A stretch of 64,000 nt of DNA from Porphyra umbilicalis. Taxonomy: Eukaryota > Rhodophyta > Bangiophyceae > Bangiales > Bangiaceae. Of this stretch, positions 10,786 through 60,840 are shown piece by piece. Numbering within the stretch: position 1 is the first letter of the stretch; the number at the start of each line of letters is the position of its first letter. The DNA is taken from positions 1 through 64,000 of the forward strand of contig KV918920.1 of NCBI GenBank assembly GCA_002049455.2, written 5' to 3'. The notes under the pieces were generated by a model that worked only from the letters and a program-made list of their open reading frames with translations, was not told the origin of the DNA and did not search any database. The translations under genes and the position numbers were made by a program.

Positions 10786-10847
10786 GGTTACTACTATGAG
10801 GAGAGAGAGCCCGCGGATGCCAAACAGAGAGAGTACGCCCGCCGGCA

Positions 10848-13392: not shown

Positions 13393-13764
13393 GAGGTCCA
13401 CAGCTCCGTCACGCCCACCAATGATCGGTGGACGCCGTTTTTACGCCTGTGAGGGCGGAAAAACAGCGGACGTGGGGATCCCAGGGAGGGTTCGGGAGTG
13501 CCGCGGGCGGCGTCTCCTTAAGCCGACTGGAGGCGGATCCGGACACCCCGGCCGTGTGGCTACGGGCGAGGGGCTGCTCAGGGCAGCTGAGTGCCACAGG
13601 AAACGGATTTCCTGTGGGATCCGATCCTCTCAGATATCCCCTGTGGGGAATGGGAACGAGCCCATTCCCCTGTCACGATGCTAAGTTCTTTCGCCCCACC
13701 CCGCGTTAGTCGACGCCCGTGGTATTAAATAACCGTCGGACAAGACAATACGGAGGGGTTCTCG

Positions 13765-18467: not shown

Positions 18468-18978
18468 TCGTCCCTGTGCCTATTCTGGATCACTCAGGTC
18501 AAATGTGGATCACCGGAATCGTCGATTCCAGCCTATTTGCCCACTGTTTTTTCTTCCTCTGACGAGCGCTCAGTACAGAAGCACGCGGGAGGGCTATAAA
18601 CATACGAGCGGAAGCCTGAGCTGAAGGGCTTTCGAACGGTGTAGAGAAAAGCACCATGATCGAAGATAAACACGTGTTTATGTCGCATAGCCCTATCGAT
18701 CGGGCAGAACCGCCGCCAAGTCGCTTGTATTGTTACACACACACGATCGATCGAAGGCAAATTTATTTTAATCACCAACATATTGTCACTCGGTGGCCGC
18801 AAAGTCCTCCGTGGCCGTCCATCCAACCGGCGCGAGACCGCACGCAACGCCGGTGCCCCACGCACCGCGAGTGCTGCACGCACCGCACTCTCCGCACGCT
18901 CGTTTTCCCGGCTTCCGCACACACCCGCCACCCTCTCCGCCGTCCGGACAGTTTCCACTGCCCTCCCCGTTTGGTGCG

Positions 18979-22507: not shown

Positions 22508-22711
22508 TATCTCCCCCCAGACAGCCCAGCGGACCGACCGGGAATCTCACGTCACCAATCGCGGACCCTCGCTGACACTCGTCACAACTCCCGCGCAGTC
22601 CGTGGTCACAAGTCGCCCACGCAATCCATCCACGACCAATCTCCCCGTCGACCCGCCCGCGGCGGGTGGCACGTGCCGCCGTTGGGCACGGCCGTCAGGC
22701 GGTGCGTAACA
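22508..22711 (-). repeat. 3' LTR of copia fossil, proximal piece
   Basis: These 204 bases complete the interrupted LTR: 65 + 204 minus the duplicated TA equals the 267 bp of the intact 5' LTR. A purine-rich tract (GTGGGGGAG, minus strand) directly precedes it. Confidence 0.88.
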
Positions 22712-25700
22712 CTCCCCCACGGCCGTGGCCATCTCGGTCGGTCGGGTCAGCGCCGCAATGCCCTAAGGCTGGCGCGAGCCGACTACCCCGCCGCCCCGTC
22801 CCCGGTGGTGCCCACGCCCATACGTGAGTGAAAGGTGTCGAAGGCTAGCGTGGGCAACGCCTTCGTCATTCTGTCGGCTAGCACCTCAGCGCCCGGTGTG
22901 TAGGTAAACTTCACCTCCCCCATCGCCACGCGCTCACGCACCATATGGTGAGCGATGTCGATGTGCTTCGCTCGCCCGGTGGTCTGGGGGTTCGCAATGA
23001 GAGAGATTCACGCCTGGTTGTCCTCAGCCATGTCGATGGGCGCCGCCGGCTGGCCCAGGTCCACCATGAGCTTGCGCACCCATAGCTCCTCACGTGTAGC
23101 CACCGCGGCCGACACGTACTCGGCTTCCGCGGTGGAGGTCGACACGGTGGGCTGCCGCTTGCTCCCCCAGGAGATGGCGGCGCCGTTCCAAGTGAAGACC
23201 CATCCGGTGGTCGACCGCCTCGTCTCCGGGCAACCACCAAAGTCAGCGTCGACCGCGCCGGCCAACGCCTCGCTGCCACCGTAGCACAGCCCGTAGTTGA
23301 CCGTCTCGGCAAGGTATCGAATGTCGCCCTTGGCCGCCGTCCAATGCTACTCCTCAGGGTTGCTCATGTAGCGCGCCAGCAGCCCAGAGGCGTAGGCGAG
23401 GTCGGGCCGCGTAGTGGTGGAGAGGTAGAGGATGCTCCCCACCAGTTACGCGTACGGCGAAGTGTCCACCAGCGGTTGTTCCCCCGTCCGCCCCAGAGAA
23501 GCTTTGGCCGGCAGCGGGAGCTTGTTGGGACGAGAGTCGCTCATCCCAAACTGCTGCAGCAACGCCACGGTGACGCGAGGGCAGCTTAGCGACAGCGTGC
23601 CCGCCGCGCGGTCGCAGCAAACACGCATGCCGAGGAAAGTGTCGGAGGCTCCCAGGTCCCGCCCCTTGTAGGTGGACAGCAACACGTCCTTGGCCGCCGA
23701 TACGCCCGCCAGCGTCTTGGCCGCGATGGCCATGTCGTCCACATGGACGAGGATGAGGATCGGCCCATGCACCGCGTGCCGCCACACGTACATCGTCGGG
23801 TCCGCCATTGACCTCTCGGCGCCAAAGTCCGTTAGCGTCTTGTGACAGTGGTTTCCCCACAGACGCCTTTCCTGTTTGCAGCCATAGAGGGCGTGCCGCA
23901 GGCGGGCGACGGTCCCCGGAGCGCCCACCTCGTAGCCCTTCGGCTGCTGCACATATACGTCCATGTCCATGGGGGCGTTCAAGTAGGCCGTCTTGATGTC
24001 AATGACATGTAGTTCGAGGTCGTCGGCGGCGACCATCGCCATCACCGCGCGCACCGTTGCGCGCGCTGGGCATGGTGCTCACACGTCCATGTAGTCCACA
24101 CCCGCCCGCTGGGTGTAGCCGTGCGCGACGTATCGTGCCTTGTAGCGGGTCACGGTGCCGTTGGCGTCGCGCTTAAAGTCAAACACCCAGCAGCCCCCGG
24201 TGGTGGTGGCACCCGCGGGCAGCGCCAAGAGCTCCCACGCGTTACGGTCGCGCAAGGAGGCCATCTCGTCGTCCATTGCCTGTTGCCACAGGCGCGCGTC
24301 ACGGCGGGTGAGGGCGTCGGTGCGGGTCTTGGGCGGCGTGGCGCACCACTCGGGGTGAGACACGGCGTCTACGACCGTCATGGAGTGGAGCGGCGCTGGC
24401 TTCGGGGGCACATGCGCCAGGGCGGTCAAGGCGGACGCGATGGGCGTGTCGGAAGCCACCCTGTGGCGCAGGAAGTAGCCGTGGCCCGGTGGCCCGTCGT
24501 CGCGCAGGCCGGCAGCCCCCGGCGCGGCCGCGCCCGTTGTGTCGGCTATGTCGGCGCCCGGCACATCGTCGCCCGGGACGTCCCGCCCCATGCCGGCGCC
24601 CGGAACTTCGTTGCCCGGCACGTCCCCCCCGCCGCCGTCATTACCCCGGGTGCTGCTCGCCGGGGTATCGATCGACCAGCCCTCGGGCAGGAAGAGGGGG
24701 ACAGGCAGCGCGATGGGATGCACGGGCGTAACGGGCACCGTCTCGTCGGCCACGAAGTCACGGCGGATGAGGATTTTCCCGGTGACAGCCGACTTGATGC
24801 GGAAGGCGTGGCCGCCTGCAGCGTAGCCGACGATCGTTCCCAGGAGCGTCTTTGCGTCGAGCTTGTTGTAGGTGGTGCTCGGCTTGAGCGCATACGCGGG
24901 GCTGCCCAACACGCGTAAGCGGGCCACGTCCGGCTTCGCGCGGTAGAAACGTTCATAGGGGGTGGCCTGGCCGTCGGCATTGGGCGAGCGGTTGCGTACG
25001 AAAAAGAGCGCCATCAGCAGCTCCGCCCACAGCGACCGCGGCAACTTGTACTCCAACAGCACCGCCCGCAGGCGCTCCATGATCGTCCGGTTCAGGCGCT
25101 CCGCCTTGCCATTCATCTGGGGATTGTAGGGCGCCATCGTCTCCGCCTTGATGCCTGCCTCATTGGAGAACGCAATCATGGGGGCGCTGTTGACGAGCTC
25201 CCCCGCGCCGTCGCAGCGGATTATCTTGACTTTTAACTTCGTCTGCTTCTCGAGGTTGGCGACCCAGACGCGCAGCGCCGGGCCCGCCTCGTCCTTGGTC
25301 TTGATGGGGGTGGCGAACCCCATTTCGGTCGCGTCGTCTAGCGCCGCCATGAAGTGAACGGCGCCCCCGTCGGACGGGTCAAGCGGCCCCACGACGTCGA
25401 CATGCAGCTTCTCCAGCTTGGAGGTGTAGGTCGTGGTGTCGTCGTGGGGGCTATGGGTTAGCCGGGCCTGCACGCAGGGCACGCAGGGGACACCCTCGGT
25501 TGTCGCCACGTCGCCCGGCTTGAGGGTCACGCCGGTCGTCAGTTTGGCAACCTTGGCGACATTGGCCAGGCCAAGGTGCCCGAATCGTCGGTGCCACAGG
25601 TGCCCAACGTCACTGGCACGGCCGTACGCCACCGCTGCACCTGCCGGGGCCGGCGAGGGTTGCGCCGTGAGTGCCGCGGACTCCACGGTGGTACCGTCAA

Positions 25701-27089
25701 GGATGTCCTGCTCGCTTGTGTCCACGTGCCCCGTTCCCACGACCCGCCCGTTCTACTCGATGGTGCACACGTCGCCCTCAAACGTCACCTTGCCGCGCTT
25801 GGCCATGGCGCGAACGGACAGCAGATTGGCCGTGATGCCCGGCACGTAGAGCGCGTGGCCGAGTGACACCGTGCCGCCGAGGGAGGTGGACAGGGCGAGC
25901 GAGCCGTGCCGCGGCGAATGCACCGAGAAGCCATTGGCGACGGTCACCTCGGACGCCTCGGGGTTGTCAGTACAAAAGCCCCCGCGGCGGGTGTGCATGT
26001 GGTTCGCTTCATCCACGCGGCGCCCGCCTGGGCGCCAGCGCGGCCCCCGGCCACCGATGCAGACGCCGCGGGTTGGGTCCCCTGTGCACTGGGTGCCCCA
26101 AGCGCATCGTTGCTGGAAGCCACGCGCTGTCCACCCGCCCACGTGCCGGTCGCCATGAAGGCAGAGGACGGTCCCCCTCCGGTGCCGGAGCGGTCGCCAT
26201 TCCCCTTCGCGGACTTCCGCTGATAGTGCCCCTTGATCCCGCACGCCCAGCATACCACCCGACGGCGACGCTTCTCCCGAGGCATGGGCACATCCCGCGG
26301 CCCCCTGGTGCCGCCCTGGGCAGTTAAGGCACCGACGGGGGTGCCCTCCTTGTCGGTGATGCTGTCGATGCGCTCGTTCTCCACGGGGTACAGCATGGGC
26401 ATGAACTCGTCCTAGCGCATGGCGGAGCCGTTGTTCGTAAGCAGCTTCTTCTCCGTCTTGTAGTCGTCGCCCAAACCGTTGAGGAAGTGGATCAACATGG
26501 TGTTGTCGTCGTACGGGTGGCCCGTGGCCGCCATCTCCAGCTGTAACTGCTTGGCCCGCCCCGACTAGGCCAACAAGGTCTCTCCCGGCTGGATCTTGAG
26601 AAGGGCAAAGTCCTGCGTCAGCTGCAGGCGCCGGGCGTTCATCTTGGCGGTAAAGACGCCCGCCAGCGCGTCCCACGCCTCCTTGGCGCTTGAGCACGAC
26701 TGCATCGTCGGGAGGTGGTGCAGTGCGACGCTCATCTTCAGGCGCCCGAAGGCGGGCTGGTCCTTCTTGGCCCACGTGGCCGCCCCAGTCGGGTCAATCT
26801 CCGCGTCGGGCTGCGGGTCGGCGATCGCTTCCCACAGCTCCTTGTCCTCCAGGGTTGTCTGGAATAGTATCGCCCATGTGGCGTAGTCGTTGTCCAATTT
26901 CTCGACCCGGAACTCAATGGTCTCCACCGGGTCAGTCATCGGGGCGGGGTCTGTCAAATCCGGATCTGGTCTCCTGTCTTTGTCGGTCAACGGGCAGGGG
27001 TTTGAACGTGCGGGGTAATGCGTCGAATCGCGCGCAGCGGTAGGGACGGAGGCGTTTGAATCGCCGCCGTCAGCACTGGGCTCATAACC

Positions 27090-27356
27090 TGTCAAGTCAT
27101 GCACGTTGGTCCGTTTATGCGAGTGGCTGTGGCCGCGCCACGCCCACCCCTATATCTCCCGCCAGATAGCCCAGCGGACCGACCGGGAATCTCACGTCAC
27201 CAATCGCGGACCCTCGCTGACACTCGTCACAACTCCCGCGCAGTCCGTGGTCACAAGTCGCCCACGCAATCCATCCACGACCAATCTCCCCGTCGACCCG
27301 CCCGCGGCGGGTGGCACGTGCCGCCGCTGGGAACGGCCGTCTGGCGGTGCCTAACA
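27090..27356 (-). repeat. 5' LTR of copia fossil
   Basis: The 267-bp LTR begins TGTTAG at 27356 on the minus strand and ends TTGACA at 27090. It is bordered outside by GCCAG and inside by a possible primer-binding segment (GGTTATGAGCCCAGTG). Confidence 0.88.
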
Positions 27357-27605: not shown

Positions 27606-27648
27606 TTGCTGATCCCCCAATTCTGTCCTGGCGGCCAGAGACAGAGAC
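27606..27648 (+). repeat. Left terminal inverted repeat, 43 bp
   Basis: Exact inverted match to 39595-39637; the sequences diverge immediately inside base 43. A TA dinucleotide lies directly outside. Confidence 0.92.
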
Positions 27649-28130
27649 AACTGTTGTTTTCAACTAGGGATGAAAAGTCGACCAACTTTTGCCGCGAAGC
27701 GATGCAATACGGATAAATTTCGTAAAGGGCATGCTTTAGTCGCTCTCCTTGGATAATAAGGGCGCGCTCGGCTGCTGTCGTCGCGGTGAACGACCACCTA
27801 AGCGATGTCAGCTTCCGTCCATGTCCCATCCCAGGAAGATATCACTGTTTGTCCCCTTTAACATTCGATCCGTGCCTCCCGGACAGCTGTGATTGATCGG
27901 GGAAGTCGGAGACTCACTGTTTATTGCCATTTTTTTCTTTTTCTCGGCATTCCCAGACCTGATCAAGTGGCGCCCTGCACACGCGTGGGCCACCTTTTTC
28001 GGTTGGCTTTCGTGTTCGAGGGCCGCAGGGAGCAGACCACCTTTCTCTGCTTGTGTTGTCCTCGAAGGCCGCAGGGCGCGGGAGCACGCCGTGGCAGCAA
28101 GGTGCGTGGAGTGAGCACACTACCGGCGCA

Positions 28131-29144
28131 ATGAAGGCGGCGGACCTTCGCCGGCTCGCCGTCTCCTTGCATCTGGACGACGGGCAGAGCCTGGAGACAG
28201 CGGCACAGAACACGCGCATGTCCCGTAGGTCCCTAACTAGGTTTTTGTCCTACGTGGCGGAGACTGGTGATGTGCATTACGCGCCAGAGAAGTGGAACAC
28301 TCATGCCGACAACTTTTTGAGGTGTCCAGATCTGCGCTCCGCGGTCCTGTTTGCTGTGGAGCAGTGCCCGGAGGCTTTTCTGGATGAGATTTCTGACTTC
28401 GTCACTCACCTGCATCAATTGCTTGGTGATGACTTCTCCATCTCTCCCTCCTCGGTTTCTCGCGTTCTTGCCGCACATGGCTTTACACGCAAGGTGATTG
28501 AGTCTGCATTCATTTCACGGAACGAGCTGGCACGCGCGAGATGGGTCCACGACCAATGGGACATCCCTTTGCGGGCGCGCGTGTACATCGACGAGGCCCA
28601 CCGCTGTGGTCGGTCCGCCGACCGCAAGTGGGCCTGGTCCCTCCGTGGCGCGCGGGCAGAGTGCTACCTTTCCAACGCTCGGGGAGTGAGCACGAGTTTT
28701 TTCGTTGCCATGAGCCACGACGCGGTGTTGGACTGGAAGATCACTCAACCACCACCAGGCCAATCCTCGGTTGACTTCCTGCTTTTCACGCTTGAGAACT
28801 TGCTTCCTCATCTGAATGCTTATGATCCAACCTTGCCGTGGTCTGCGCAAGACGAGCGGTGCGTCTTGGTTTTGGACCATGCTCGTGTGCATGACCAGGC
28901 CGCCATCGCTTTGCTTGAGGCCCGAGGTGGGCTTGTGCGCTTCTTGCCTCCCTACAGTCTGGACTTCAACCCCATTGAGGACGTCTTCTCGGTCGGGAGC
29001 AGTTGGCTTCGTCGGCATGTGGAGCCTGAGCAGTTCAATGCATGGCCGTTCTACACCATTGCTCTGATGCTAGCCTCCATCACGCCCGACATGTGCCGCG
29101 GCTTCGTACGCGCAGCCGTGCGCAACTACAGCCTGTATATCTAA
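28131..29144 (+). CDS. Tc1/IS630-type DDE transposase
   Basis: 337 residues from the ATG at 28131 (GCGCAATGAAGG). The frame is open further upstream, but without an earlier ATG. The N-terminus (MKAADLRRLAVSLHLDDGQS) is a helix-turn-helix with a second HTH around MSRRSLTRFLSYV. The DDE_3 core shows YIDEAHRCG (first Asp), VLVLDHARVHD (second Asp) and FLPPYSLDFNPIED (Glu), the last being the hallmark PPYSPDLNPIE block with small changes. The second spacing counted from the codons is 33 residues, one fewer than the usual DD34E. The frame is uninterrupted. As the only transposase in the 12-kb element it probably mobilises it. Confidence 0.87.
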   Translation: MKAADLRRLAVSLHLDDGQSLETAAQNTRMSRRSLTRFLSYVAETGDVHYAPEKWNTHADNFLRCPDLRSAVLFAVEQCPEAFLDEISDFVTHLHQLLGDDFSISPSSVSRVLAAHGFTRKVIESAFISRNELARARWVHDQWDIPLRARVYIDEAHRCGRSADRKWAWSLRGARAECYLSNARGVSTSFFVAMSHDAVLDWKITQPPPGQSSVDFLLFTLENLLPHLNAYDPTLPWSAQDERCVLVLDHARVHDQAAIALLEARGGLVRFLPPYSLDFNPIEDVFSVGSSWLRRHVEPEQFNAWPFYTIALMLASITPDMCRGFVRAAVRNYSLYI

Positions 29145-29224
29145 CGCAAGAGTAAGTTGCTTCGTTCATCTGCATCCCGCTGGTCTCTAAACTGGAGTGC
29201 CCAACGACGGGCTCCAAAACGTGC

Positions 29225-30800
29225 AAAATAAAACAACGCGTTGACAATCCCTCTTTTCTGTCGCTTCCCGTGTCTTTTTTGGGCTTTTCTGCTGGTGCCT
29301 CTGAACCGAGCAGGGGTGAAAACGCAAAGGACGGCGGCGGGCGCTCGCTGCCGGGCCGCGTGCAACCAATTGTTGCACGCGGGTCGGCGGCGTGTGGCCC
29401 GCGCGCCCACCAGCGTGCACGCATCGGCGGCGGCGGCGTCGTGCGTGAGAGGTGGGACTGAGGGTAGGCGTGGCTCTGGTTGGCGTGGCCTCGCGCTGCG
29501 CGGGCTTTTGGGTTGACTCTTGTGGTACGTGCACGCATTCGTCCGGGACGTCAGCCTGTAGTGTGTTTCGTGTGCATCTTGTGAGTGCTGAGGAGCGTAC
29601 GGATGGCAGTTGAGGACGGGGCGAGCCGTTGGCGGGCTCGGGGGTGGTGGCGACACTGTTAACGATGGGCACGGGAGCCGCCGCAGACGTGGGAGACGGC
29701 GGCGACGCCAAAATGTGGACACTGACGCAACGCGATGGCAATCCCTCTTTTCTGTCGATTCCCGTGTCTTTTTCGGCGTTTCTGTTGGTGCCACTGAACC
29801 GGGCAGGGGTGAAAACGCAAAGGACGGCGGCGGGCGCTCGCTGCCGGGCCGCGTGCAACCAATTGTTGCACGCGGGTCGGCGGCGTGTGGCCCGCGCGCC
29901 CACCAGCGTGCACGCATCGGCGGCGGCGGCGTCGTGCGTGAGAGGTGGGACTGAGGGTAGGCGTGGCTCTGGTTGGCGTGGCCTCGCGCTGCGCGGGCTT
30001 TTGGGTTGACTCTTGTGGTACGTGCACGCATTCGTCCGGGACGTCAGCCTGTAGTGTGTTTCGTGTGCATCTTGTGAGTGCTGAGGAGCGTACGGATGGC
30101 AGTTGAGGACGGGGCGAGCCGTTGGCGGGCTCGGGGGTGGTGGCGACACTGTTAACGATGGGCACGGGAGCCGCCGCAGACGTGGGAGACGGCGGCGACG
30201 CCAAAATGTGGACACTGACGCAACGCGATGGCAATCCCTCTTTTCTGTCGATTCCCGTGTCTTTTTCGGCGTTTCTGTTGGTGCCACTGAACCGGGCAGG
30301 GGTGAAAACGCAAAGGACGGCGGCGGGCGCTCGCTGCCGGGCCGCGTGCAACCAATTGTTGCACGCGGGTCGGCGGCGTGTGTTCCGCGCGCCCACCAGC
30401 GTGCGCGCATCGGCGGCGGCGGCGTCGTGCGTGCGCGGTGCGACTGGGGGTAGGCGTGGCTTTGGTTGGCGTGGCCTCGCGCTGTGCGGGCTTTTTGGAT
30501 GACTGTTGTGGTACGTGCACGCGTCCGTCGCGGACGTACGGCTGTGGTGTGTTTTGTGTGCTTCTGGGGAGTCCTGAGGAGCGTATGGATGGCAGTTGTG
30601 GACGGGGCGAGCCGTTAGCGGGCTTGGAGGTGGTGGCGACACAGTTGAGGATGGGCACGAGAGCCCATGCAGACATGGGAGACGGCGGCGACGCCAAAAT
30701 GTGTACACTGCCGCAACGCGATGGCAATCCCTCTTTTCTGTCGATTCCCGTGTCTTTTTCGGCTTTTCTGAGGGTGCCACTGAACCGCGAAGATGAAAAT
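29225..30800 (+). repeat. 493-bp tandem repeats, left arm
   Basis: The block AACGCAAAGGACGGCGGCGG recurs at 29321, 29814 and 30307, exactly 493 apart, with a diverged partial unit after 30700. Since 493 is not a multiple of three, long open frames through the array switch frame every unit and are unlikely to be genes. Confidence 0.88.
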
Positions 30801-31689
30801 ACACCATTGATGGAGGCGCGCTGTCGGGTTTTCGGGGACGGACGCGTTGACTTTGAAGGAGGGCAATTGCGGAGCGGAGAGCAGGCGGTGTCGTCGCGTC
30901 TTCTCTGGTGCAAGAGTGGCGCCAGAGAGGGGTGTTTTTGATCTTTGTTTGCTATTGATGCCGCTGTCACCGCCTGCTCGTTCTCTGCGTCACTGTTCTG
31001 TGTCGTTTTGTTTGTTGTTTTGTGCCGTGCTGTTGTCTTTTTCTCCTCTACATTGTGCGCTTGTCGCGCCGACGCTGGGGCTTTGTTTGCTTTCGGTTGC
31101 TCTTTTTTTCTTTTGTAGTCGTTGTGGGACCTTGTTTTTTTGCGGTCCGCGTGGGACCTTTCTTTTCGCCTTTACCTGCACGACGCTCTCCTGTTGTGGT
31201 TCGTGGTGGGGTTTTCTCGTTGGGGATGGGCAAAACGGGCTGCTTTGACAGCACAGTGCCGCATCCATCACACTGCCGCATCACATCCGAGGGGGGTTTG
31301 GACAGCGGATTTTGACTCAGCGGGCCCACGTTGCCCAGACAGGAGTAGGGGGAGGTCGGAAGACAGTATTTCTGGGGGTGCTGACCCCCTCGGCCCATTG
31401 GAAGCGTACGACTGGATCCGGTCGGGTTGAGAAAAACGCTCGTATCTCTGGCCCCGCGCGTGCTCGATCATGGTTCTTTGGCTCTTTGCATCCGGAACGA
31501 GCTCCTCTTCGTACTGCATACGCAAGCGCAACGAATCATGGACGGAGAAAACAGACAGGCCCGAGGCCCCTTCCGCGGAGTTCTCTGCCTGCGGGGCTGG
31601 CTCATACGATGGGAACACGTCCAATACCTTTTCTGAAAGCAGCTTCCAACTCAGCGTGCCCAATTTGCATGGGAAGGAGTAGGGGGAGG

Positions 31690-33010
31690 TCGGCAGACAG
31701 TGCTGCTGGGGATGCCGACCCGACTGACAGCTCGGAAGCGCCACGGATCTGAGCAGGTCCAAAATGGAACGCCTATAAATCTGCTTGTACGTATGCGTTT
31801 GACCTGTTCTTTGGCTCATTGTCTACGGCAGAAGCTTCTCTTCAGTTGCCATACACGGGGGGAGCGTTTTATTGTGGCAAAAGAGGTCCACGCCCGGTGC
31901 CCCTCGAGGGGCGCCATGTTTCGTGTGAGGCCCGCTCATATCGCGGGAACACGTTGGAACGCTGCTTTGACCGCGGAATACGACTCAGCCGACTCATATT
32001 ACCTAGGTAGGCATAGGGGGAGGCCATCGAACAGGCGCTCTCGGGGCACGGAGCCCCTTCCTCTGATAGAGTCCAGGACCTGCCCCACCGCGGCACCACG
32101 CGTTCCATCCGACACCGGCGGCACCTCCAAATCGAGCCTCCATCCGGAGGACAATGTCAAAATTGGCACAGGAAAGGGCAACCAAAATTTGATCTAGAAT
32201 TCCAATGCGACGAGGGTGGCGACATTTTCTCCGACCGGGCCGACCGGACTGACAGCTCGGAAGCGCCACGGATCTGAGCAGGTCCAAAATGGAACGCCTA
32301 TAAATCTGCTTGTACGTATGCGTTTGACCTGTTCTTTGGCTCATTGTCTACGGCAGAAGCTTCTCTTCAGTTGCCATGCACGGGGGAAGCGTTTTACTGT
32401 GGAAAAAGAGGTCCACGCCCGGTGCCCCTCGAGGGGCGCCATGTTTCGTGTGAGGCCCGCTCATATCGCGGGAACACGTTGGAACGCTGCTTTGACCGCG
32501 GAATACGACTCAGCCGACTCATATTACCTAGGTAGGCATAGGGGGAGGCCATCGAACAGGCGCTCTCGGGGCACGGAGCCCCTTCCTCTGATAGAGTCCA
32601 GGACCTGCCCCACCGCGGCACCACGCGTTCCATCCGACACCGGCGGCACCTCCAAATCGAGCCTCCATCCGGAGGACAATGTCAAAATTGGCACAGGAAA
32701 GGGCAACCAAAATTTGATCTAGAATTCCAATGCGACGAGGGTGGCGACATTTTCTCCGACCGGGCCGACCGGACTGACAGCTCGGAAGCGCCACGGATCT
32801 GAGCAGGTCCAAAATGGAACGCCTATAAATCTGCTTGTACGTATGCGTTTGACCTGTTCTTTGGCTCATTGTCTACGGCAGAAGCTTCTCTTCAGTTGCC
32901 ATACACGGGGGAAGCGTTTTACTGTGGAAAAAGAGGTCCACGCCCGGTGCCCCTCGAGGGGCGCCATGTTTCGTGTGAGGCCCGCTCATATCGCGGGAAC
33001 ACGTTGTAAC
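31690..33010 (+). repeat. 525-bp tandem repeats, left arm
   Basis: CTGACAGCTCGGAAGCGCCA recurs at 31724, 32249 and 32774, a period of 525. The third unit runs into the palindrome centre. Although 525 is a multiple of three, no domain is visible in the short frames inside. Confidence 0.88.
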
Positions 33011-33269
33011 GCTGCTTTGACCGCGGAATTTGACTCAGAAGACTTATTATACCCACGAACGTATAGGGGGAGGTCGATGAACAGACTCCAATGCGTCACT
33101 GGGACACAATTTGTCCGACGAGCAGCCGCGACGTGGCGCAGCAACGCTGCAAACGAAGTCAACCAGAGTCGCCTATGTGCAAAGGAGAGGAACATAGATG
33201 CTGCCAGCACTTGTGTTGGCTGGGCTCCCCCAGTGCCTACCTGGGTAATATGAGTCTGCTGAGTCGTAT

Positions 33270-34600
33270 TCCGCGGTCAAAGCAGCGTTCCAACGTGTTC
33301 CCGCGATATGAGCGGGCCTCACACGAAACATGGCGCCCCTCGAGGGGCACCGGGCGTGGACCTCTTTTTCCACAGTAAAACGCTTCCCCCGTGCATGGCA
33401 ACTGAAGAGAAGCTTCTGCCGTAGACAATGAGCCAAAGAACAGGTCAAACGCATACGTACAAGCAGATTTATAGGCGTTCCATTTTGGACCTGCTCAGAT
33501 CCGTGGCGCTTCCGAGCTGTCAGTCCGGTCGGCCCGGTCGGAGAAAATGTCGCCACCCTCGTCGCATTGGAATTCTAGATCAAATTTTGGTTGCCCTTTC
33601 CTGTGCCAATTTTGACATTGTCCTCCGGATGGAGGCTCGATTTGGAGGTGCCGCCGGTGTCGGATGGAACGCGTGGTGCCGCGGTGGGGCAGGTCCTGGA
33701 CTCTATCAGAGGAAGGGGCTCCGTGCCCCGAGAGCGCCTGTTCGATGGCCTCCCCCTATGCCTACCTAGGTAATATGAGTCGGCTGAGTCGTATTCCGCG
33801 GTCAAAGCAGCGTTCCAACGTGTTCCCGCGATATGAGCGGGCCTCACACGAAACATGGCGCCCCTCGAGGGGCACCGGGCGTGGACCTCTTTTTCCACAG
33901 TAAAACGCTTCCCCCGTGCATGGCAACTGAAGAGAAGCTTCTGCCGTAGACAATGAGCCAAAGAACAGGTCAAACGCATACGTACAAGCAGATTTATAGG
34001 CGTTCCATTTTGGACCTGCTCAGATCCGTGGCGCTTCCGAGCTGTCAGTCCGGTCGGCCCGGTCGGAGAAAATGTCGCCACCCTCGTCGCATTGGAATTC
34101 TAGATCAAATTTTGGTTGCCCTTTCCTGTGCCAATTTTGACATTGTCCTCCGGATGGAGGCTCGATTTGGAGGTGCCGCCGGTGTCGGATGGAACGCGTG
34201 GTGCCGCGGTGGGGCAGGTCCTGGACTCTATCAGAGGAAGGGGCTCCGTGCCCCGAGAGCGCCTGTTCGATGGCCTCCCCCTATGCCTACCTAGGTAATA
34301 TGAGTCGGCTGAGTCGTATTCCGCGGTCAAAGCAGCGTTCCAACGTGTTCCCGCGATATGAGCGGGCCTCACACGAAACATGGCGCCCCTCGAGGGGCAC
34401 CGGGCGTGGACCTCTTTTTCCACAATAAAACGCTCCCCCCGTGTATGGCAACTGAAGAGAAGCTTCTGCCGTAGACAATGAGCCAAAGAACAGGTCAAAC
34501 GCATACGTACAAGCAGATTTATAGGCGTTCCATTTTGGACCTGCTCAGATCCGTGGCGCTTCCGAGCTGTCAGTCGGGTCGGCATCCCCAGCAGCACTGT
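33270..34600 (-). repeat. 525-bp tandem repeats, right arm
   Basis: Reverse-complement copy of the left-arm 525-bp array, with the matching block near 33523, 34048 and 34573. Confidence 0.87.
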
Positions 34601-35479
34601 CTGCCGACCTCCCCCTACTCCTTCCCATGCAAATTGGGCACGCTGAGTTGGAAGCTGCTTTCAGAAAAGGTATTGGACGTGTTCCCATCGTATGAGCCAG
34701 CCCCGCAGGCAGAGAACTCCGCGGAAGGGGCCTCGGGCCTGTCTGTTTTCTCCGTCCATGATTCGTTGCGCTTGCGTATGCAGTACGAAGAGGAGCTCGT
34801 TCCGGATGCAAAGAGCCAAAGAACCATGATCGAGCACGCGCGGGGCCAGAGATACGAGCGTTTTTCTCAGCCCGACCGGATCCAGTCGTACGCTTCCAAT
34901 GGGCCGAGGGGGTCAGCACCCCCAGAAATACTGTCTTCCGACCTCCCCCTACTCCTGTCTGGGCAACGTGGGCCCGCTGAGTCAAAATCCGCTGTCCAAA
35001 CCCCCCTCGGATGTGATGCGGCAGTGTGATGGATGCGGCACTGTGCTGTCAAAGCAGCCCGTTTTGCCCATCCCCAACGAGAAAACCCCACCACGAACCA
35101 CAACAGGAGAGCGTCGTGCAGGTAAAGGCGAAAAGAAAGGTCCCACGCGGACCGCAAAAAAACAAGGTCCCACAACGACTACAAAAGAAAAAAAGAGCAA
35201 CCGAAAGCAAACAAAGCCCCAGCGTCGGCGCGACAAGCGCACAATGTAGAGGAGAAAAAGACAACAGCACGGCACAAAACAACAAACAAAACGACACAGA
35301 ACAGTGACGCAGAGAACGAGCAGGCGGTGACAGCGGCATCAATAGCAAACAAAGACCAAAAACACCCCTCTCTGGCGCCACTCTTGCACCAGAGAAGACG
35401 CGACGACACCGCCTGCTCTCCGCTCCGCAATTGCCCTCCTTCAAAGTCAACGCGTCCGTCCCCGAAAACCCGACAGCGC

Positions 35480-37720
35480 GCCACCATCAATGGTGTATTT
35501 CCACCTTCGCGGTTCAGTGGCACCCACAGAGAAGCCGAAAAAGACACGGGAAGCGACAGAAAAGAGGGATTGCCAACGCGTTGTGTCAGTGTCCACATTT
35601 TGGCGTCGCCGCCATCCCCCACCCCCTGCGGCGGGTCCCGTGCCCATCGTAAACAGTGCCGCCACGCCCCCCGCGCCCGCCAACGGATCGGCCCGTCCAC
35701 AACTGCCATCCATACTCTCCTCAGGACTCCCCAAAAGCACACAAAACACACCACAGCCGTACGTCCCCGACGGATGCGTGCACGTACCAGAACAGTCAAC
35801 CGAAAGGCCCGCGCAGCGCGCGGCCACGCCAACCAAAGCCACGCCCTCCCCCAGTCCCACCGCGCACGCACGACGCCGCCGCCGCCGATGCGCGCACGCC
35901 GGTGGGCGCGCGGGCCACACGCCGCCGACCCGCGTGCAACAATTGGTTGCACGCGGCCCGGCAGCGAGCGCCCGCCGCCGTCCTTTGCGTTTTCACCCCT
36001 GCCCGGTTCAGTGGCACCAACAGAAACGCCGAAAAAGACAAGGGAATCGACAGAAGAGAGGGATTGCCATCGCGTTGCGTCAGTGTCCACATTTTGGCGT
36101 CGCCGCCGTCTCCCACGTCTGCGGCGGCTCCCGTGCCCATCGTTAACAGTGTCGCCACCACCCCCGAGCCCGCCAACGGCTCGCCCCGTCCTCAACTGCC
36201 ATCCGTACGCTCCTCAGCACTCACAAGATGCACACGAAACACACTACAGGCTGACGTCCCGGACGAATGCGTGCACGTACCACAAGAGTCAACCCAAAAG
36301 CCCGCGCAGCGCGAGGCCACGCCAACCAGAGCCACGCCTACCCTCAGTCCCACCTCTCACGCACGACGCCGCCGCCGCCGATGCGTGCACGCTGGTGGGC
36401 GCGCGGGCCACACGCCGCCGACCCGCGTGCAACAATTGGTTGCACGCGGCCCGGCAGCGAGCGCCCGCCGCCGTCCTTTGCGTTTTCACCCCTGCCCGGT
36501 TCAGTGGCACCAACAGAGAAGCCGAAAAAGACACGGGAAGCGACAGAAAAGAGGGATTGCCAACGCGTTGTGTCAGTGTCCACATTTTGGCGTCGCCGCC
36601 ATCCCCCACCCCCTGCGGCAGGTCCCGTGCCCATCGTAAACAGTGCCGCCACGCCCCCCGCGCCCGCCAACGGATCGCCCCTGCCACAACTGCCATCCCT
36701 ACGCTCCTAAGCACTGCCCAAAAGCACACAAAACACACCACAGCCGTACGTCCCCGACGGATGCGTGCACGTACCACAAGAGTCAACCGAAAGGCCCGCG
36801 CAGCGCGCGGCCACGCCAACCAAAGCCACGCCTTCCCCCAGTCCCACCGCGCACGCACGATGCCGCCGCCGCCGATGTGCGCACGCCGGTGGGCGCCCGG
36901 GCCACACGCCGCCGACCCGCGTGCAACAATTGGTTGCACGCGGCCCGGCAGCGAGCGCCCGCCGCCGTCCTTTGCGTTTTCACCCCTGCCCGGTTCAGTG
37001 GCACCAACAGAAAAGCCGAAAAAGACACGGGAATCGACAGAAAAGAGGGATTGTCATCGCGTTGCGTCAGTGTCCACATTTTGGCGTCGCCGCCGTCTCC
37101 CACGTCTGCGGCGGCTCCCGTGCCCATCGTTAACAGTGTCGCCACCACCTCCAAGCCCGCTAACGGCTCGCCCCGTCCACAACTGCCATCCATACGCTCC
37201 TCAGGACTCCTCAGAAACACACAAAACACACCACAGCCGTACGTCCGCGACGGACGCGTGCACGTACCACAACAGTCATCCAAAAAGCCCGCACAGCGCG
37301 AGGCCACGCCAACCAAAGCCACGCCTACCCCCAGTCGCACCGCGCACGCACGACGCCGCCGCCGCCAATGCGCGCACGCCGGTGGGCGCGCGGGCCACAC
37401 GCCGCCGACCCGCGTGCAACAATTGGTTGCACGCGGCCCGGCAGCGAGCGCCCGCCGCCGTCCTTTGCGTTTTCACCCCTGCCCGGTTCAGTGGCACCAA
37501 CAGAAAAGCCGAAAATGACACGGGAATCGACAGAAAAGAGGGATTGCCATCGCGTTGCGTCAGTGTCCACATTTTGGCGTCGCCGCCGTCTCCCACGTCT
37601 GCGGCGGCTCCCGTGCCCATCGTAAACAGTGCCGCCAGCCCCCCCGAGCCCGCCATCGGCTCGCCCTGTCCACGACTGCCATCCGTACGCTCCTCAGCAC
37701 TCATCAGAAGCACAAACCAT
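35480..37720 (-). repeat. 493-bp tandem repeats, right arm
   Basis: TCCTTTGCGTTTTCACCCCT occurs at 35981, 36474, 36968 and 37461 (spacings 493, 494, 493), inverted relative to the left arm, with partial units at both ends. The array has about one more unit than the left arm. A plus-strand open frame of over 800 codons crosses it but alternates between translations from unit to unit. Confidence 0.87.
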
Positions 37721-37914
37721 GCGACACATCCGTCCCCGCTTGAGGAGTGCGCGTACCTCCGCAGTCATCCAAAAAGCCAGCACAGCCTGCGGCCACGCTG
37801 ATCGGCTCCTCACCGATCTTTCGCTCAGCTTCTATTGGGTGGGCGCCCACTGTGATGTCAGTTAACAGGTATCCAGCTGAGCAGGATAAGATTCGTTGTC
37901 AGTCCTTCTGCTCT

Positions 37915-39060
37915 TCACTTCGCACAGCACGGGTAAGTGTCTCGGCTGCTGTGTCGCCCGCCGTCCCGTCGACGCACCTTGAAGTACAGCTGCATTGCGT
38001 CGTTCCCATGACGGAGCTCCGACAAAAACTGAGTCAGCACCGCCCGGGTCCCGAGGGTCTTCAGTTTGGCACCGTCGGCGCACGCCATCATGACGCCCAC
38101 AAGATCAGCTGTGGAAAGCGACTCGGCGGTCAGTGCTTGCCCGTAAAAGTGGTGAGGCGCAGTAAAGAAGGCGTTCAACGTGTCCCTCACTTGCGTGGCG
38201 ATGACAGGGTCAGTGATATTCGCAAATTTCAAAGCAGCCGCGCGGAGCTGAACACCCGAGCGAATAGAGAAAGGGTTCTCGGACCCGTATATCTCGGCGT
38301 TCGCACCCGCACGGCGGGCATGCACCCCAACCGTCCGCAAAACATCGCTCATGCTCTTGCGCTTGGCGGGGGTGAACTTTGGCTGCTGCATGGACCGGAA
38401 GACTTTGTCCATGCTAGCCAAAGCCGCCGCCCGAGCCTCGTCCACGGTTCCGCCGGCACACGCGGCTTGAGCGGGAGCAACAGGTGGCGCCGGGACGTCA
38501 CGGTCGCCATGACGGGCACGGTCCGCAACAAGGGCGCCGGCCAGACGGGCGCCGCCTGGTGTGGCACCCGCGTCGCGGGCGGCCGCAATTGCGGCGTCCG
38601 CCGCTCGGGCCCGTGGCTGGGCCGCCGCCCCTCCCAAATCTTCGTCATCCACAATCGCGCTGCGGGCAACGTGGGCCGCCACATGCGAGCCGGCGAAGGA
38701 TTCACCCGCCGTCGCAGCTAGACTGCTCTTGGCCCGTGCGCGCTGCTCCTTAAGTTGTCGAGGCGCTTGGGCCCGATCGGCTAGGATGACCCGCAGCCGT
38801 CCATGCATTGCGGCCATGTCATGCTTTTCACAAACAAACTTGGCCGCCTTTCTTGAACGTGTCGGGATGGCACACGACCTCATGTCCTCCGTGTGCCCCC
38901 GCACCCTGCAGGCTCCGCATGCCACAGCACACAGGGTACACGTCGTCTGCCCGCAGGCATCAACGCATGGATACTTCGGGCTTTGCACGAGCGGGCAAGT
39001 GCGCGTGTCGTGTCCATCCATGTTGCAGGCACTGCACCGACGGACACGCGTCTCGGCCAT
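37915..39060 (-). CDS. Zinc-knuckle protein carried by the 12-kb element
   Basis: 381 residues from the ATG at 39058-39060. The frame is open further upstream, but the cysteine region begins right after this Met. Near the start is a CCHC knuckle, CSACNMDGHDTRTC (C-x2-C-x4-H-x4-C), then a second cysteine cluster (CGQTTCTLCAVACGACRVRG). The middle is Ala-rich, and the C-terminal half (FSIRSGVQLRAAALKFANIT, FFTAPHHFYGQALTAES) looks globular and helical. Such knuckles bind single-stranded nucleic acid. The gene is convergent with the transposase and lies inside the terminal repeats, so it is probably an accessory gene of the transposon. I recognise no specific family. Confidence 0.68.
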   Translation of the reverse strand: MAETRVRRCSACNMDGHDTRTCPLVQSPKYPCVDACGQTTCTLCAVACGACRVRGHTEDMRSCAIPTRSRKAAKFVCEKHDMAAMHGRLRVILADRAQAPRQLKEQRARAKSSLAATAGESFAGSHVAAHVARSAIVDDEDLGGAAAQPRARAADAAIAAARDAGATPGGARLAGALVADRARHGDRDVPAPPVAPAQAACAGGTVDEARAAALASMDKVFRSMQQPKFTPAKRKSMSDVLRTVGVHARRAGANAEIYGSENPFSIRSGVQLRAAALKFANITDPVIATQVRDTLNAFFTAPHHFYGQALTAESLSTADLVGVMMACADGAKLKTLGTRAVLTQFLSELRHGNDAMQLYFKVRRRDGGRHSSRDTYPCCAK

Positions 39061-39594
39061 GCCTGCAAGGGATAAAACAACCATGTTTGCAGAAAAAAAA
39101 TCAACCGTACAATGCACTGCGCCGTTAGAATATTGAGATGAGTGGAGTGGGCCAGCCGCGTCCATGAAATCGTGCCATTCCGACAACAAAGTGCGCCACA
39201 CGAAGCAGACGCGTGTCACGTACCAGCCAGTGGTGGCGAGCCTGTACCCACGGGGGCGTCTGGGGCTCCCGAGCGCGAAGCGGTGCCCTCCATGCGTCAC
39301 GGGAACGGTGAGCAGAAACCGTAGTGTGAGCGGACACGCGACCTCGTTGCGGGGCACGGGGACAGTGACGGGAATGGCGACAGTGATGAGCCCCGTGAAG
39401 ATGACGAGTGAAGCTGTGCCCGCGGACAGCTGGTCGAGGGCGGCCACGGCAGTCGATTTCCTGGACAGGTTGTCACTCTCCAAATCCAATCGACTTGACA
39501 GGAAATGCTGCACTTCCTCATGGATCTCGTCTTGAAAGGCGCCGAAACCAACCCTAACATTTCGTTTGAATGATTAACAGTGATGTAACTGTCG

Positions 39595-39637
39595 GTCTCT
39601 GTCTCTGGCCGCCAGGACAGAATTGGGGGATCAGCAA
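39595..39637 (-). repeat. Right terminal inverted repeat, 43 bp
   Basis: Exact inverted match to 27606-27648, followed by TA at 39638-39639. Confidence 0.92.
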
Positions 39638-40828: not shown

Positions 40829-41380
40829 ATGGCTCCAACCGTCCAAACAGCCAAACGTGGCACCGTTCGGCCAACGAGGGCACTGGGGGAGAAAGCGAGG
40901 TCCAAAACTAGTGTTTGACGGTGGTGTGACGGCCCAAAAAGAGCACTTCACACAATTCTAATTCTCTACTGCATCTCGAGTTCCGAACGCGCGACTGCCC
41001 CTGTTGTGGAGCTTCAACGGTCCAAACAGGCCTGTTTGGCGCCGCTTTAAAGTGTTTAGCCAAAGCATGGTTCCATTTTCGCCAACCTTATTGCTGTCTT
41101 CCCAATTTTGGCCGATCCCGTCGGTGTCAAGAGGGGTGATCAACAGTGCGAAACAGCGTCTCAGCCATCCACTCGGCCGGATAGAGTCGATTGACCAATG
41201 GGCAGTTAACTCAGACCCCTTCTTGACTTTGACCTTATCGGCCAAAATTGGGAAAACAGCAATACGCCAATGCAATGCGTGACCCGTGGCGGGCGCACAA
41301 TCTCGAGAGGCGCCGCGATCGAAAGAGGCGCTTGACTTGTCCCGATCGATCGCACTTACAGGGCATGACAGGATAATTCT
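40829..41380. other. No gene seen
   Basis: Near-neutral sequence between the foldback element and the 759-bp duplication, with no recognisable gene, repeat or RNA. Confidence 0.35.
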
Positions 41381-42140
41381 CCCAACACAGAGCCCGTCGC
41401 TGCGAGAAAGCAGAAGAAAAACATCGAGACAAACATGCGCTAAACAGTTTTCTTCGCCTCCCCACACCTAAGGGACCGCTTCACCGGTCGACGATGGGCG
41501 AGGTCCGCGGCGAGGGGCCGCTCAATGAGGCCTTGAGCGGCCGCAAAGGCCGCGTCGAGGCACACCTTCTGCGCGCGTGCAGTGGCGCGCAGGAGACACA
41601 GGTCCTCCTCTGCCCCGCTCGTCCCGCGGCGGTCCGCAACAACGGAGACCGCAACGCCGCCAGCCGCCGCCTCAGCTGCATGCTGAGCGACGACGCGCCG
41701 CCACGCCATGACGGCGTCGACGGCCGCCTCCCGCGCAAAGACGAACTCCGCCGGCCGCAGCACAGCTAGTGTGTTAAGGGGATCGTCCAAGATCGGCGTG
41801 CAGCTCGACACGTACGAGTGTACAATCATGCACAATCGGTGCGGGATCATCTGCAATCGACTCTACTAGGCCGGCGGTCGATTGTCAGCAGCAGAGCGAC
41901 CGGCCGGATTGCATGCTTGTAAGCACCCCCCTCTGGGAAGCACACTCCAGAGCCTGGAATGCGAGTCGGGTTTCCCAGACCCCTCTATCCCCAAGTTATT
42001 GAGCCAGCTCGAACCGAGATAGCGGGCTTTGAAAATTGTGCAATGGAAAGTCGCCGGGGTTGACCCATGCAAGAGGGCCACCATGGGGGGGGCTCCATTG
42101 ATGCCAGTTGGATGATTTGCGCCTGTCGCGGAGACTGCGG
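41381..42140. repeat. 759-bp direct duplication, copy 1
   Basis: Matches 43668-44427 at a constant offset of 2287 with only a few substitutions noticed. It contains a GC-rich minus-strand frame of 138 codons (41440-41856) identical in both copies, but that proves only that the duplication is recent. The frame has no recognisable domain. Confidence 0.88.
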
Positions 42141-43667
42141 TCACAACCACCGCTCTTTCCAGTGCGCATGCGCGTTGCACCTGGACACGGCTTCAGAAGC
42201 TGTAACACCGCCGCCCACCGCACACCGGCTGCGCCCCACCACTTGACGTGGTCCGCAGCTGCGGGCAGGCGCTGTTCTTCTTGTGGTGGTCTGCGACCGG
42301 CGTGGGTGCCGAAACATTCATGGTGGCCCTCCGCTGATAGCGGTGGGCCCGCTTGTGGTTGTTAGAAGCGGGTAGTGAGGTTCGTTTGCACCACCTCGGT
42401 GGTTTGCGGACGGTTGTGTGCTGAGTGGCATTGTTCAGTGGTCCCAGGACGACCGCGCTTTTGTTCGGAGGTTTGCGAGCAATAGGACGTTGGCTTCACC
42501 TCGTTGGCCGCACGTGGCTTCTCCCCACTGAGCTGCCACTTTGTTTTCTCGTTCTCTTACTGCTCTGACATCCTTATCAACACCTGTTCCCCACTGCCTT
42601 CCCCTTCTCATTCTCGTGCCGCATCACGCCTCACTTGGCACCTAGGCACGCTCGTGTTCCGTTTGGCTTGCTTGGTTTTCGTATCCGTGTTGGCGTGCGC
42701 GGGAGTGAAGCGGGTAAAAGCTTTGAGCTGCGGCTGCCAACAGCGCTCTGATGCACCGTTGCTGACACATGCTATGCTTTATCGTGTTGCGCTTTCACGT
42801 TGTTATCCACGGATGTTTGCTTTCTTTTTTTGAGCTACTGTACGTCAATTTGGCATGTGGAATGAATGTGCGGCCTTCTCATTTGCTGTTTCTGTCCGAG
42901 CAGATACGGATTCGCTGCCTCAAGCTGCGCGCGACGTGGTCGCATTCATGGCCATGAGGATCTCGGAGTCGTCGTGGGCGGCCGTGGCTGTGGCGGCGGC
43001 CGTGTTCCTCGGGCTGTCCGCTCTGCAGCCTGGACAGCAGCTTCCCGGGGAGCGTGTCGTCACCTTTTTCTCTTTTGTGCTCACGTTCTCGCACGCAGGT
43101 TGCCCCCTGCTGCTGGGCCAGAGCGCTCCAGAGATCCCGGTGCAGTGGATGGCCTCGACCTCCTGTCTGCTCGGTGCAGAAGGCAGAGACGAGCAGCTGG
43201 TTGCAGCGGCATCGTGTTTGGCTGACGCCGACGCGCAGACGTGGGGGCGCCTGCGCCGTGTCCTTTTCTGGGTTCTGGTCTGTATTTAGTCGCTTGCATT
43301 TTCAGAGGGCTCCATCGTCTTTCTCGTTCGGCGTTTGACTGCACGCGTAGTGGTCCACATGAGCCAGGTGTTGGCGTGGTGGCGCCGCGGGTACGCTGAG
43401 GGTGACGCTTTGCCTGCTCCGCAGGGATTAGGCAATCTTGGGCCTGCTTTAGAGCAGGACGCTGCTGCTTTTTAGATGTGCTTGGCATTCTTATTTCTGT
43501 TTATTCCTCTTTGTTCCATTGTGCTTGCACAGCCTCATGCGGCGAGCCATGTCTGTTTTGTCATCGGGGTAAAACAAGCTCCAGTGGCTCAGCAGTTTCG
43601 TACTCTCGTGCTGTGCTCAGATAGTCTGTCTGGAACGCTACAGACACGATGATGCCAGGTTTATTAT
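42141..43667. other. 1.5-kb unique segment between direct duplicates
   Basis: Mixed composition. A plus-strand frame of about 144 codons at 42855-43289 is hydrophobic in part but has no domain or homologue I recognise. Nothing firmly supported. Confidence 0.35.
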
Positions 43668-44427
43668 CCCAATACAGAGCCCGTCGCTGCGAGAAAGCAG
43701 AAGAAAAACATCGAGACAAACATGCGCTAAACAGTTTTCTTCGCCTCCCCACACCTAAGGGACCGCTTCACCGGTCGACGATGGGCGAGGTCCGCGGCGA
43801 GGGGCCGCTCAATGAGGCCTTGAGCGGCCGCAAAGGCCGCGTCGAGGCACACCTTCTGCGCGCGTGCAGTGGCGCGCAGGAGACACAGGTCCTCCTCTGC
43901 CCCGCTCGTCCCGCGGCGGTCCGCAACAACGGAGACCGCAACGCCGCCAGCCGCCGCCTCAGCTGCATGCTGAGCGACGACGCGCCGCCACGCCATGACG
44001 GCGTCGACGGCCGCCTCCCGCGCAAAGACGAACTCCGCCGGCCGCAGCACAGCTAGTGTGTTAAGGGGATCGTCCAAGATCGGCGTGCAGCTCGACACGT
44101 ACGAGTGTACAATCATGCACAATCGGTGCGGGATCATCTGCAATCGACTCTACTAGGCCGGCGGTCGATTGTCAGCAGCAGAGCGACCGGCCGGATTGCA
44201 TGCTTGCAAGCACCCCCCTCTGGGAAGCACACTCCAGAGCCTGGAATGCGAGTCGGGTTTCCAAGACCCCTCTATCCCCAAGTTATTGAGCCAGCTCGAA
44301 CCGAGATAGCGGGCTTTGAAAATTGTGCAATGGAAAGTCGCCGGGGTTGACCCATGCAAGAGGGCCACCATGGGGGGGGCTCCATTGATGCCAGTTGGAT
44401 GATTTGCGCCTGTCGCGGTGACTGCGG
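43668..44427. repeat. 759-bp direct duplication, copy 2
   Basis: Second copy of 41381-42140. Its right edge coincides with the outer edge of the copia 3' LTR at 44428, whereas copy 1 continues into unrelated sequence at 42141. Confidence 0.88.
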
Positions 44428-51970: not shown

Positions 51971-52363
51971 TGTAGCATATCTCTGCTACCAATTGGCAAT
52001 TAGCCACGGGTAGCCCCCTTGACTGGCCGAATCCACGGATGTGTGTGACTCGGCTTGTGGCATGCCCTTTGGGGGGTTACTTCCGCATTGTTTATTTTTT
52101 ATTGCTTGTTTGCTTGCCTGCCTTATCTGTCTGCCGGCACTCATTACGATCGCTTGATCGGATGGTCGATCGACCAGTGCCGTTGTTTGTATTGAACCAC
52201 CGTGGGTCCGGGGTCGCCGTCGTGGGCACCACCCGGCTCCCCATCGGATGCCCTTCAACAAAAGGTCTTCTTCCTCGCCGCGACGGCGATAGAACTCGCT
52301 TTATTGCTTGGCTACGGTCGGTCTCAGTACACTGGTAATTGAACTAACGTTATTAATACCACA
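51971..52363 (+). repeat. 5' LTR of gypsy element
   Basis: 393 bp, TGTAGCATATC...TAATACCACA, preceded by CGAAT. The following segment, TTTGGTGGAGCAGCAGGGG, may contain the primer-binding site. Confidence 0.95.
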
Positions 52364-52593
52364 TTTGGTGGAGCAGCAGGGGATACCCTCGCCTTCATCG
52401 TGCCTCGCGGCACGGTGTCCCCGAGAACTTTCTCGCTGCCTTGTGGCATTGTGACGGTGTCGATACGGTCGATTGGCGCGCGGGGCGTAAGCCATTTGAC
52501 TTGTGGGCGTGGTGCCGGGGGCATCACGGTTGAGATCTCCGACGTTGGCGCGCAGGGCGTAAGCCAAGTCGGAACACTTGTTCAGGTCCCAGT

Positions 52594-54237: not shown

Positions 54238-54242
54238 GCCGG

Positions 54243-60807: not shown

Positions 60808-60840
60808 CGCGTTGGTCGTCCGGGGGGTGTTTACCCTGGC

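Follow-up and report, generated by a model that had tools for sequence, protein, structure and literature searches.

A probable two-gene transposon of the IS630-Tc1-mariner group with a foldback-like palindrome between its genes in Porphyra umbilicalis

We analyzed 64,000 nucleotides of the Porphyra umbilicalis genome (positions 1 to 64,000 of contig KV918920.1, assembly GCA_002049455.2; hereafter the window) and found at 27606-39637 an element of about 12 kb that is best explained, from its sequence, as one autonomous-looking DNA transposon with two convergent genes. Our favored reading, to which we give a probability of roughly 0.58, is that of a giant two-gene element of the IS630-Tc1-mariner group in which the intergenic region became a foldback-like palindrome. 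The initial annotation had described a single mobile element with these coordinates, with IS630/Tc1-type ends (perfect 43-bp inverted repeats flanked by TA), an open transposase gene, a convergent zinc-knuckle gene and an internal palindrome symmetric about 33,148, and the present analysis bears out this description. The ends and the two genes are as follows, with the supporting evidence in parentheses:

27606-27648, plus strand: left terminal inverted repeat, 43 bp (exact inverted match to 39595-39637; TA just before)
39595-39637, minus strand: right terminal inverted repeat, 43 bp (exact inverted match to 27606-27648; TA just after)
28131-29144, plus strand: IS630-type transposase, 337 amino acids (aa) from the first in-frame ATG (Pfam DDE_3, NCBIfam IS630, catalytic triad, Foldseek)
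37915-39060, minus strand: convergent zinc-knuckle open reading frame (ORF), 381 aa from the ATG at 39060 (two knuckle motifs, codon score, open-frame length)

The inverted ends agree at 43 of 43 bp. A 23-base end probe, allowing up to three mismatches, matched the 64 kb at two places, the two ends themselves, against a mean of 0.00 in 100 shuffles. The TA outside each end presumably represents a target duplication. Any duplication beyond TA is unsupported, the left flank reading TATA and the right flank TAGA, and a Sailor-type TATA target was rejected because the two flanks agree in TA alone. Exact matches of the end, hairpin and 525-bp unit probes were absent from IMG/VR.

The first of the two genes encodes an IS630-Tc1-mariner-type transposase with an intact catalytic triad, D154, D249 and E283, with 94 residues between the first and second D and 33 between the second D and E. 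Its frame has a GTG upstream at 28053 and its first in-frame ATG at 28131. The protein matches Pfam DDE_3 (E = 1.5e-12) and the NCBIfam IS630 model (E = 2.8e-21), the latter at 76.2 bits, below the curated cut-off of 100; Pfam helix-turn-helix matches also stayed below their curated cut-offs, the best being HTH_23 (E = 0.0015). With tblastn against 72,556 plasmid records, we obtained matches in 526, all below 60% identity. The first eight listed are 27-29% identical over 91-99% of the protein, and the annotation of 12 of the 15 listed reads IS630 family transposase. In prokaryote genomes, at least 435 relatives were confirmed among at least 591 pattern matches; in the 80 that were kept, the best segments are 24-32% identical to the transposase, with the exception of one locus (L051) matching at 43% over a short segment. 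The three catalytic residues are invariant in 16 aligned sequences (the window transposase and 15 of the 80 prokaryote loci, several of them partial), a sample that is not unbiased since the search patterns sit near these residues, and they are invariant also in a five-sequence alignment. Among viral sequences, the two proteins gave 8 and 12 pattern matches, none of them confirmed as a relative.

Structural comparison agreed with this assignment. An AlphaFold2 model built from the 16-sequence alignment, with a mean predicted local distance difference test (pLDDT) score of 74.6 and a predicted template modeling score of 0.56, has helices at its N terminus followed by a mixed strand-helix core. 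Foldseek placed Mos1 and Sleeping Beauty at the top of its Protein Data Bank (PDB) matches (E = 2e-9 to 3e-7); phmmer against PDB sequences returned nothing up to E = 1. The protein was thus recognized as a DDE transposase of the IS630-Tc1-mariner group with an N-terminal helix-turn-helix region, and we infer that it is active.

The second gene faces the first. Read on the minus strand from a GTG at 39513 down to 37915, its frame stays open for 532 codons, longer than in all 2,000 first-order random sequences of the region (99th percentile, 372 codons). The encoded protein carries two CCHC motifs of the form C-x2-C-x4-H-x4/5-C, CSACNMDGHDTRTC and CGACRVRGHTEDMRSC. Over 37915-39052, a codon score with three neighboring transposon ORFs as the reference was positive in the gene's own frame alone among the six, at 0.048 compared with 0.084 for the transposase. 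A GT-AG intron may connect the gene to a short first exon at 39293-39248. Searches of Pfam, NCBIfam, PHROGs and the plasmid records found no relatives of the protein, and Pfam no kinase match; a single-sequence structure model was unusable (mean pLDDT 40.4). Its lone match among solved structures, a 31-residue exoribonuclease chain resembling the first motif, was not significant (E = 1.2) and does not speak for kinship.

Between the two genes lies a repeat region of about 8.6 kb (29214-37798). In a self-comparison, 29234-33055 pairs with 37064-33242 over 3,825 columns at 97.0% identity, with the center at 33148.5, and blastn (word size 14, E = 1e-5) listed no inverted repeat longer than 60 bp starting outside 29-38 kb in the window. 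The region is divided as follows:

29214-30787, plus strand: left array of 493-bp units, three full and an inner partial (self-BLAST, TRF, unit alignment)
30788-31713, plus strand: left-arm segment of about 0.9 kb outside both tandem arrays, with a motif repeated at 31347 and 31681 (arm comparison)
31714-33084, plus strand: left array of 525-bp units, about 2.6 copies (self-BLAST, unit comparison)
33085-33213, no strand: unique central spacer of 129 bp, between the ends of the two 525-bp arrays
33214-34583, minus strand: right array of 525-bp units (self-BLAST, unit comparison)
34584-35509, minus strand: right-arm mirror of 30788-31713 (arm comparison)
35510-37798, minus strand: right array of 493-bp units, four full and outer and inner partials (TRF, self-BLAST, unit alignment)

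The right side holds about 1.5 more 493-bp units than the left. The initial annotation had built the arms from 493-bp and 525-bp tandem units and called them near identical. The arrays were recovered, with the amendment that each arm has about 0.9 kb in neither array and that a unique spacer of 129 bp separates the arms; near identity holds for the inner 2.2 kb and fails in the outer arrays, as the divergence figures below specify.

An AATAAA stands at 29227-29232, downstream of the transposase and just ahead of the left array; downstream of the zinc-knuckle gene, none occurs in the 315 bases from 37915 to 37601. Rfam gave no known structured RNA in the element up to E = 1. We also observed that the outer arms (29214-31713 and 34584-37798) are rich in G+T when read onward in the sense direction of the adjoining gene, with GC skews of 0.12 to 0.22 and AT skews of -0.21 to -0.31 in that reading. 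CpG is not depleted in the arms (0.96-1.23, compared with 1.07 for the window). The skew and CpG figures used a right-arm boundary at 35490/35491, which is 19 bases off, with no material effect.

The right array is crossed by a frame of 824 aa (35327-37801, plus strand), which we rejected as a gene: the codon score is negative in all six frames, GC is flat by codon position and Pfam gives no match. It runs on without a stop across the 493-bp units even though that length is not divisible by 3. Against the rejection, the stop-free length is rare: 767 codons fall in the array, and when 1,000 arrays were simulated by tandem repetition of first-order random units, only 1 reached that length.

The 493-bp units share an invariant block. 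In all seven full units, the same 87 adjacent columns are constant, although 87 of the 493 columns vary; partial units were excluded from these counts. The copies lie at the following positions:

29310-29396, plus strand: invariant 87-bp hairpin block, copy 1 of 7
29803-29889, plus strand: invariant 87-bp hairpin block, copy 2 of 7, the copy used for folding
30296-30382, plus strand: invariant 87-bp hairpin block, copy 3 of 7
35916-36002, minus strand: invariant 87-bp hairpin block, copy 4 of 7
36409-36495, minus strand: invariant 87-bp hairpin block, copy 5 of 7
36903-36989, minus strand: invariant 87-bp hairpin block, copy 6 of 7
37396-37482, minus strand: invariant 87-bp hairpin block, copy 7 of 7

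When the columns were permuted 20,000 times as independent sites, the longest invariant run averaged 25.5 and never exceeded 71. With one representative per unit type (58 varying columns), the longest invariant run was 126 against a permutation maximum of 95. The block holds the hairpin GCTGCCGGGCCGCGTGCAACCAATTGTTGCACGCGGGTCGGCGGC, with a stem of 8 and 11 pairs, one mismatch between them and a loop of five bases, present in three exact copies on the left and four on the right. Its near-palindromic core, CGTGCAACCAATTGTTGCACG, is found in all seven full units and, at up to three mismatches, nowhere else in the window. Compared with 200 shuffles, the 87-bp block was the more stable in every case, whether folded as RNA (z = -3.86) or as DNA (z = -4.93). 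When 60-base pieces of the plus strand were folded every 10 bases, the left-arm hairpins ranked among the strongest in the window; the folds that exceeded them came from a region of 82% GC at about 9.1-9.5 kb. That region, 9001-10000, also contains a run of 27 G and has very stable predicted folds.

The two arms differ by 105 substitutions and 17 gap columns, unevenly spread. The inner arms (30788-33006) show 7 substitutions in 2,219 bases, or 4 in 2,192 when the first 27 are left aside, while the outer arrays (29234-30787) show 91 substitutions and all 17 gap columns, about 6%; the last 49 bases before the center contain 7 differences. Inside the outer array, a perfect stretch of 461 bp (29781-30241) interrupts the divergence. 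In the first 300 bp of the 525-bp units, mirror partners are more alike (L1-R1 differ by 1, L2-R2 by 0; L, left and R, right) than tandem neighbors (L1-L2 differ by 5, R1-R2 by 4). The full 493-bp units fall into three types, L1/L2/R3 (4-10 differences), L3/R1 (18) and R2/R4 (19), separated by 34-55 differing columns, so that whole units differ by up to about 11%. Two of the types occur in both arms, and the R2/R4 type in the right arm alone. One of the three 493-bp mirror pairs, L2-R3, is near identical with 4 differences. These patterns suggest that sequence has been exchanged between the arms, and the simplest account would be that an inverted duplication was followed in the inner part by arm exchange and in the outer arrays by turnover of units.

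Under the favored reading, the transposase most likely acts on the 43-bp ends and moves the 12-kb unit into TA sites by a cut-and-paste mechanism. What separates the two stop codons would be an inverted duplication of paired tandem arrays, which both genes would thus share as their 3' flank. The arms may have been kept alike by exchange with each other, through gene conversion or through unequal exchange in the course of repair or replication. The hairpin is the one part held constant in every full 493-bp unit; most likely it is a repeated site in the shared flank that serves transcript ending or processing or the binding of an element protein, or it is the start point of the exchange itself, alternatives that one copy does not separate. 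The palindrome as such most likely arose as a side effect of repeat turnover and would stand outside the transposition chemistry.

Several observations weigh against this reading. The element was read from a single copy in one 64-kb window. Superposition of the whole transposase on its PDB matches is weak, with template modeling scores of 0.40-0.46 on the query in the first nine. The zinc-knuckle codon score is small (0.048, compared with 0.084 for the transposase) and was taken with a three-ORF reference, and upstream of 39055 the frame scores -0.012. As to the exchange between arms, the truncated innermost 525-bp units break the mirror rule (L3p and R3p differ by 12, and R3p differs from L2 and from R2 by 2 each), and two of the three 493-bp mirror pairs are unlike (L1-R2 with 53 differences, L3-R4 with 45). 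The 0.3% divergence of the inner arms could reflect, instead of ongoing exchange, a duplication of recent date whose arrays were shuffled afterward. Lastly, the column permutation treats sites as independent, a condition that mosaic exchange violates, and it therefore overstates the evidence for the constant block.

Among the alternatives, the one that survives best, itself unlikely, is that the arrays form a multi-site binding platform on which the knuckle protein or the transposase binds the hairpin and aids transposition or its control. The confinement of the core to the full units fits such a role, as does the presence of the knuckle gene within the same element, and the tandem repeats of Galileo hold secondary transposase sites according to the available part of PMC3573991; a comparable role has been proposed for tandem repeats of Galileo and of other elements. 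The Galileo repeats lie in terminal repeats, however, whereas those described here are internal; apart from one T-rich run, no 12-bp word is common to the intergenic region and the terminal 525 and 582 bp; and the knuckle protein yielded no usable model. We consider it rather improbable that the element represents a distinct giant IS630-type lineage in a GC-rich eukaryote, in which the palindrome would be a working part and the knuckle protein would read the hairpin arrays, either as DNA or as RNA of the shared 3' flank, so as to control transposition or to handle the element's double-stranded RNA.

We likewise doubt that the palindrome acts through RNA, with transcripts forming a hairpin of up to about 4 kb whose double-stranded and small RNAs would silence or tune the element. 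The geometry of the arms suits this model and both genes point into the palindrome. The available part of PMC3440606 gives two precedents: Mu killer, which duplicates part of MuDR in inverted orientation, has been proposed to yield a hairpin RNA of about 4 kb, and a failure of termination between the convergent genes of MuDR gives rise to antisense RNA; the same source finds shorter Mu killer transcripts, however, and offers a second model. Neither reading frame extends into the arms, so for small RNAs from the arms to match the transposase message, the 3' end of that message would have to enter the array; the AATAAA ahead of the array suggests that it may end earlier. The arms also lack CpG depletion.

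Less credible still is a nested arrangement, in which a smaller IS630-type transposon received, between its two genes, a foldback-type element consisting of the two arms. The arms do lie wholly between the two genes, and inverted arms with tandem units inside them are a feature of foldback elements (PMC4079207, in its available part). The outer ends of the arrays are nevertheless unlike, the right array extending 734 bp (one unit and 241 bp) past the mirror of the left start. Between the junctions at 29191-29245 and 37761-37860, the longest direct repeat is 7 bp and falls 24-30 bp inside the end of the right array, and the inverted matches listed include none of at least 6 bp. Nested insertion is thus disfavored by the out-of-phase outer ends and by the absence of a target duplication at these junctions.

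That a fold-back read or misjoin created the palindrome, large palindromes being a known artifact of long-read chemistry, is very hard to credit given the 105 substitutions and 17 gap columns between the arms, the unequal unit numbers, the unique 129-bp spacer and the different genes past each arm within one matching pair of terminal repeats, although the number of units could still be misassembled.

The window is dense in mobile elements, and the features annotated near the transposon are transposons and one tRNA. A copia-type retroelement at 22508-27356, between 204-bp direct repeats 97% alike and with its coding region broken into several ORFs, ends 249 bp before the transposon starts (its exact ends are unsettled). 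At 51971-62255 lies a chromovirus-type gypsy retrotransposon with reverse transcriptase, RNase H, integrase and chromodomain; its 393-bp direct repeats are 99.5% alike with TG...CA ends, and CGAAT stands on both sides as a target duplication. Direct repeats of 776 bp, 99% alike, bound 41365-44427 (3.06 kb in total, no ORF of at least 250 aa inside), perhaps a nonautonomous long terminal repeat element. Two further transposase-like ORFs were found, at 3970-5976 (Plavaka, E = 5.6e-7) and at 18793-20730 (DDE_1, E = 7.6e-14), the latter of which we take to be pogo-like. An overlapping direct repeat of about 1.8 kb, 99.8% alike, at 10480-13760 reflects either a recent duplication or an assembly duplication.

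Should further copies have the same layout, it would follow that a transposase of the Tc1/IS630 type is able to mobilize a unit some five to nine times as long as the usual 1.3-2.5 kb that encloses an 8.6-kb palindrome, and that foldback-like arms can arise internally in a two-gene element. The ciliate TBEs would then no longer be the sole multigene case named here, and the element would offer a natural case for the study of arm-to-arm exchange and of a constant hairpin. Should the copy be the only one, the element amounts to a curiosity of repeat turnover.

With the IS630-Tc1-mariner group (bacterial IS630; eukaryotic Tc1/mariner and Sailor), the element shares the transposase family and fold, the D-D-E triad, short terminal inverted repeats, here 43 of 43 bp and flanked by TA, and the TA target, whose duplication is probable. 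In Tc1 proper, 34 residues separate the second D from E. The spacing here is 33, and we therefore file the element in the group as a whole and not under DD34E/Tc1 or another named DDxE family. Typical Tc1/mariner elements measure 1.3-2.5 kb and their autonomous members usually have one ORF, according to the available part of PMC8533490, in line with the premise of the initial annotation that Tc1-type elements are usually a few kilobases with one gene; the element described here has 12 kb, two genes and an internal palindrome. The annotation had further held that no described family has this layout. The combination was indeed absent from the literature surveyed, a weak negative as most subscription papers lay outside the search, but TBEs, MuDR and foldback elements each show part of it.

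The TBEs of the ciliate Oxytricha are likewise Tc1/mariner transposons with more than one gene. The available part of PMC4724952 gives them three ORFs, one encoding zinc-finger and kinase domains, a target duplication of ANT and telomeric repeats in the ends, and mentions no palindrome. The element in the window has two genes, with a knuckle protein lacking a Pfam kinase match, and that protein is set against the TBE by description and not by sequence. MuDR of maize belongs to the Mutator superfamily, with a MULE transposase. It resembles the present element in its two convergently transcribed genes, for the transposase and for a protein of unknown function, and has terminal repeats of about 215 bp (PMC3440606, in part); DDE_3/IS630 transposase and 43-bp ends set the present element apart from the MuDR type. 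Mu killer, as described in the same part of that source, is an inverted duplication of part of an element and not an internal part of an intact one. The foldback-type elements Galileo and Tetris have inverted arms with internal tandem units of varying number (PMC3573991 and PMC4079207, both in part). The long, internally repeated inverted arms are common to both; those of the foldback elements are their own terminal repeats with a target duplication, whereas the arms in Porphyra umbilicalis are out of phase at their outer ends, show no duplication there and lie inside an element that ends in short IS630-type repeats.

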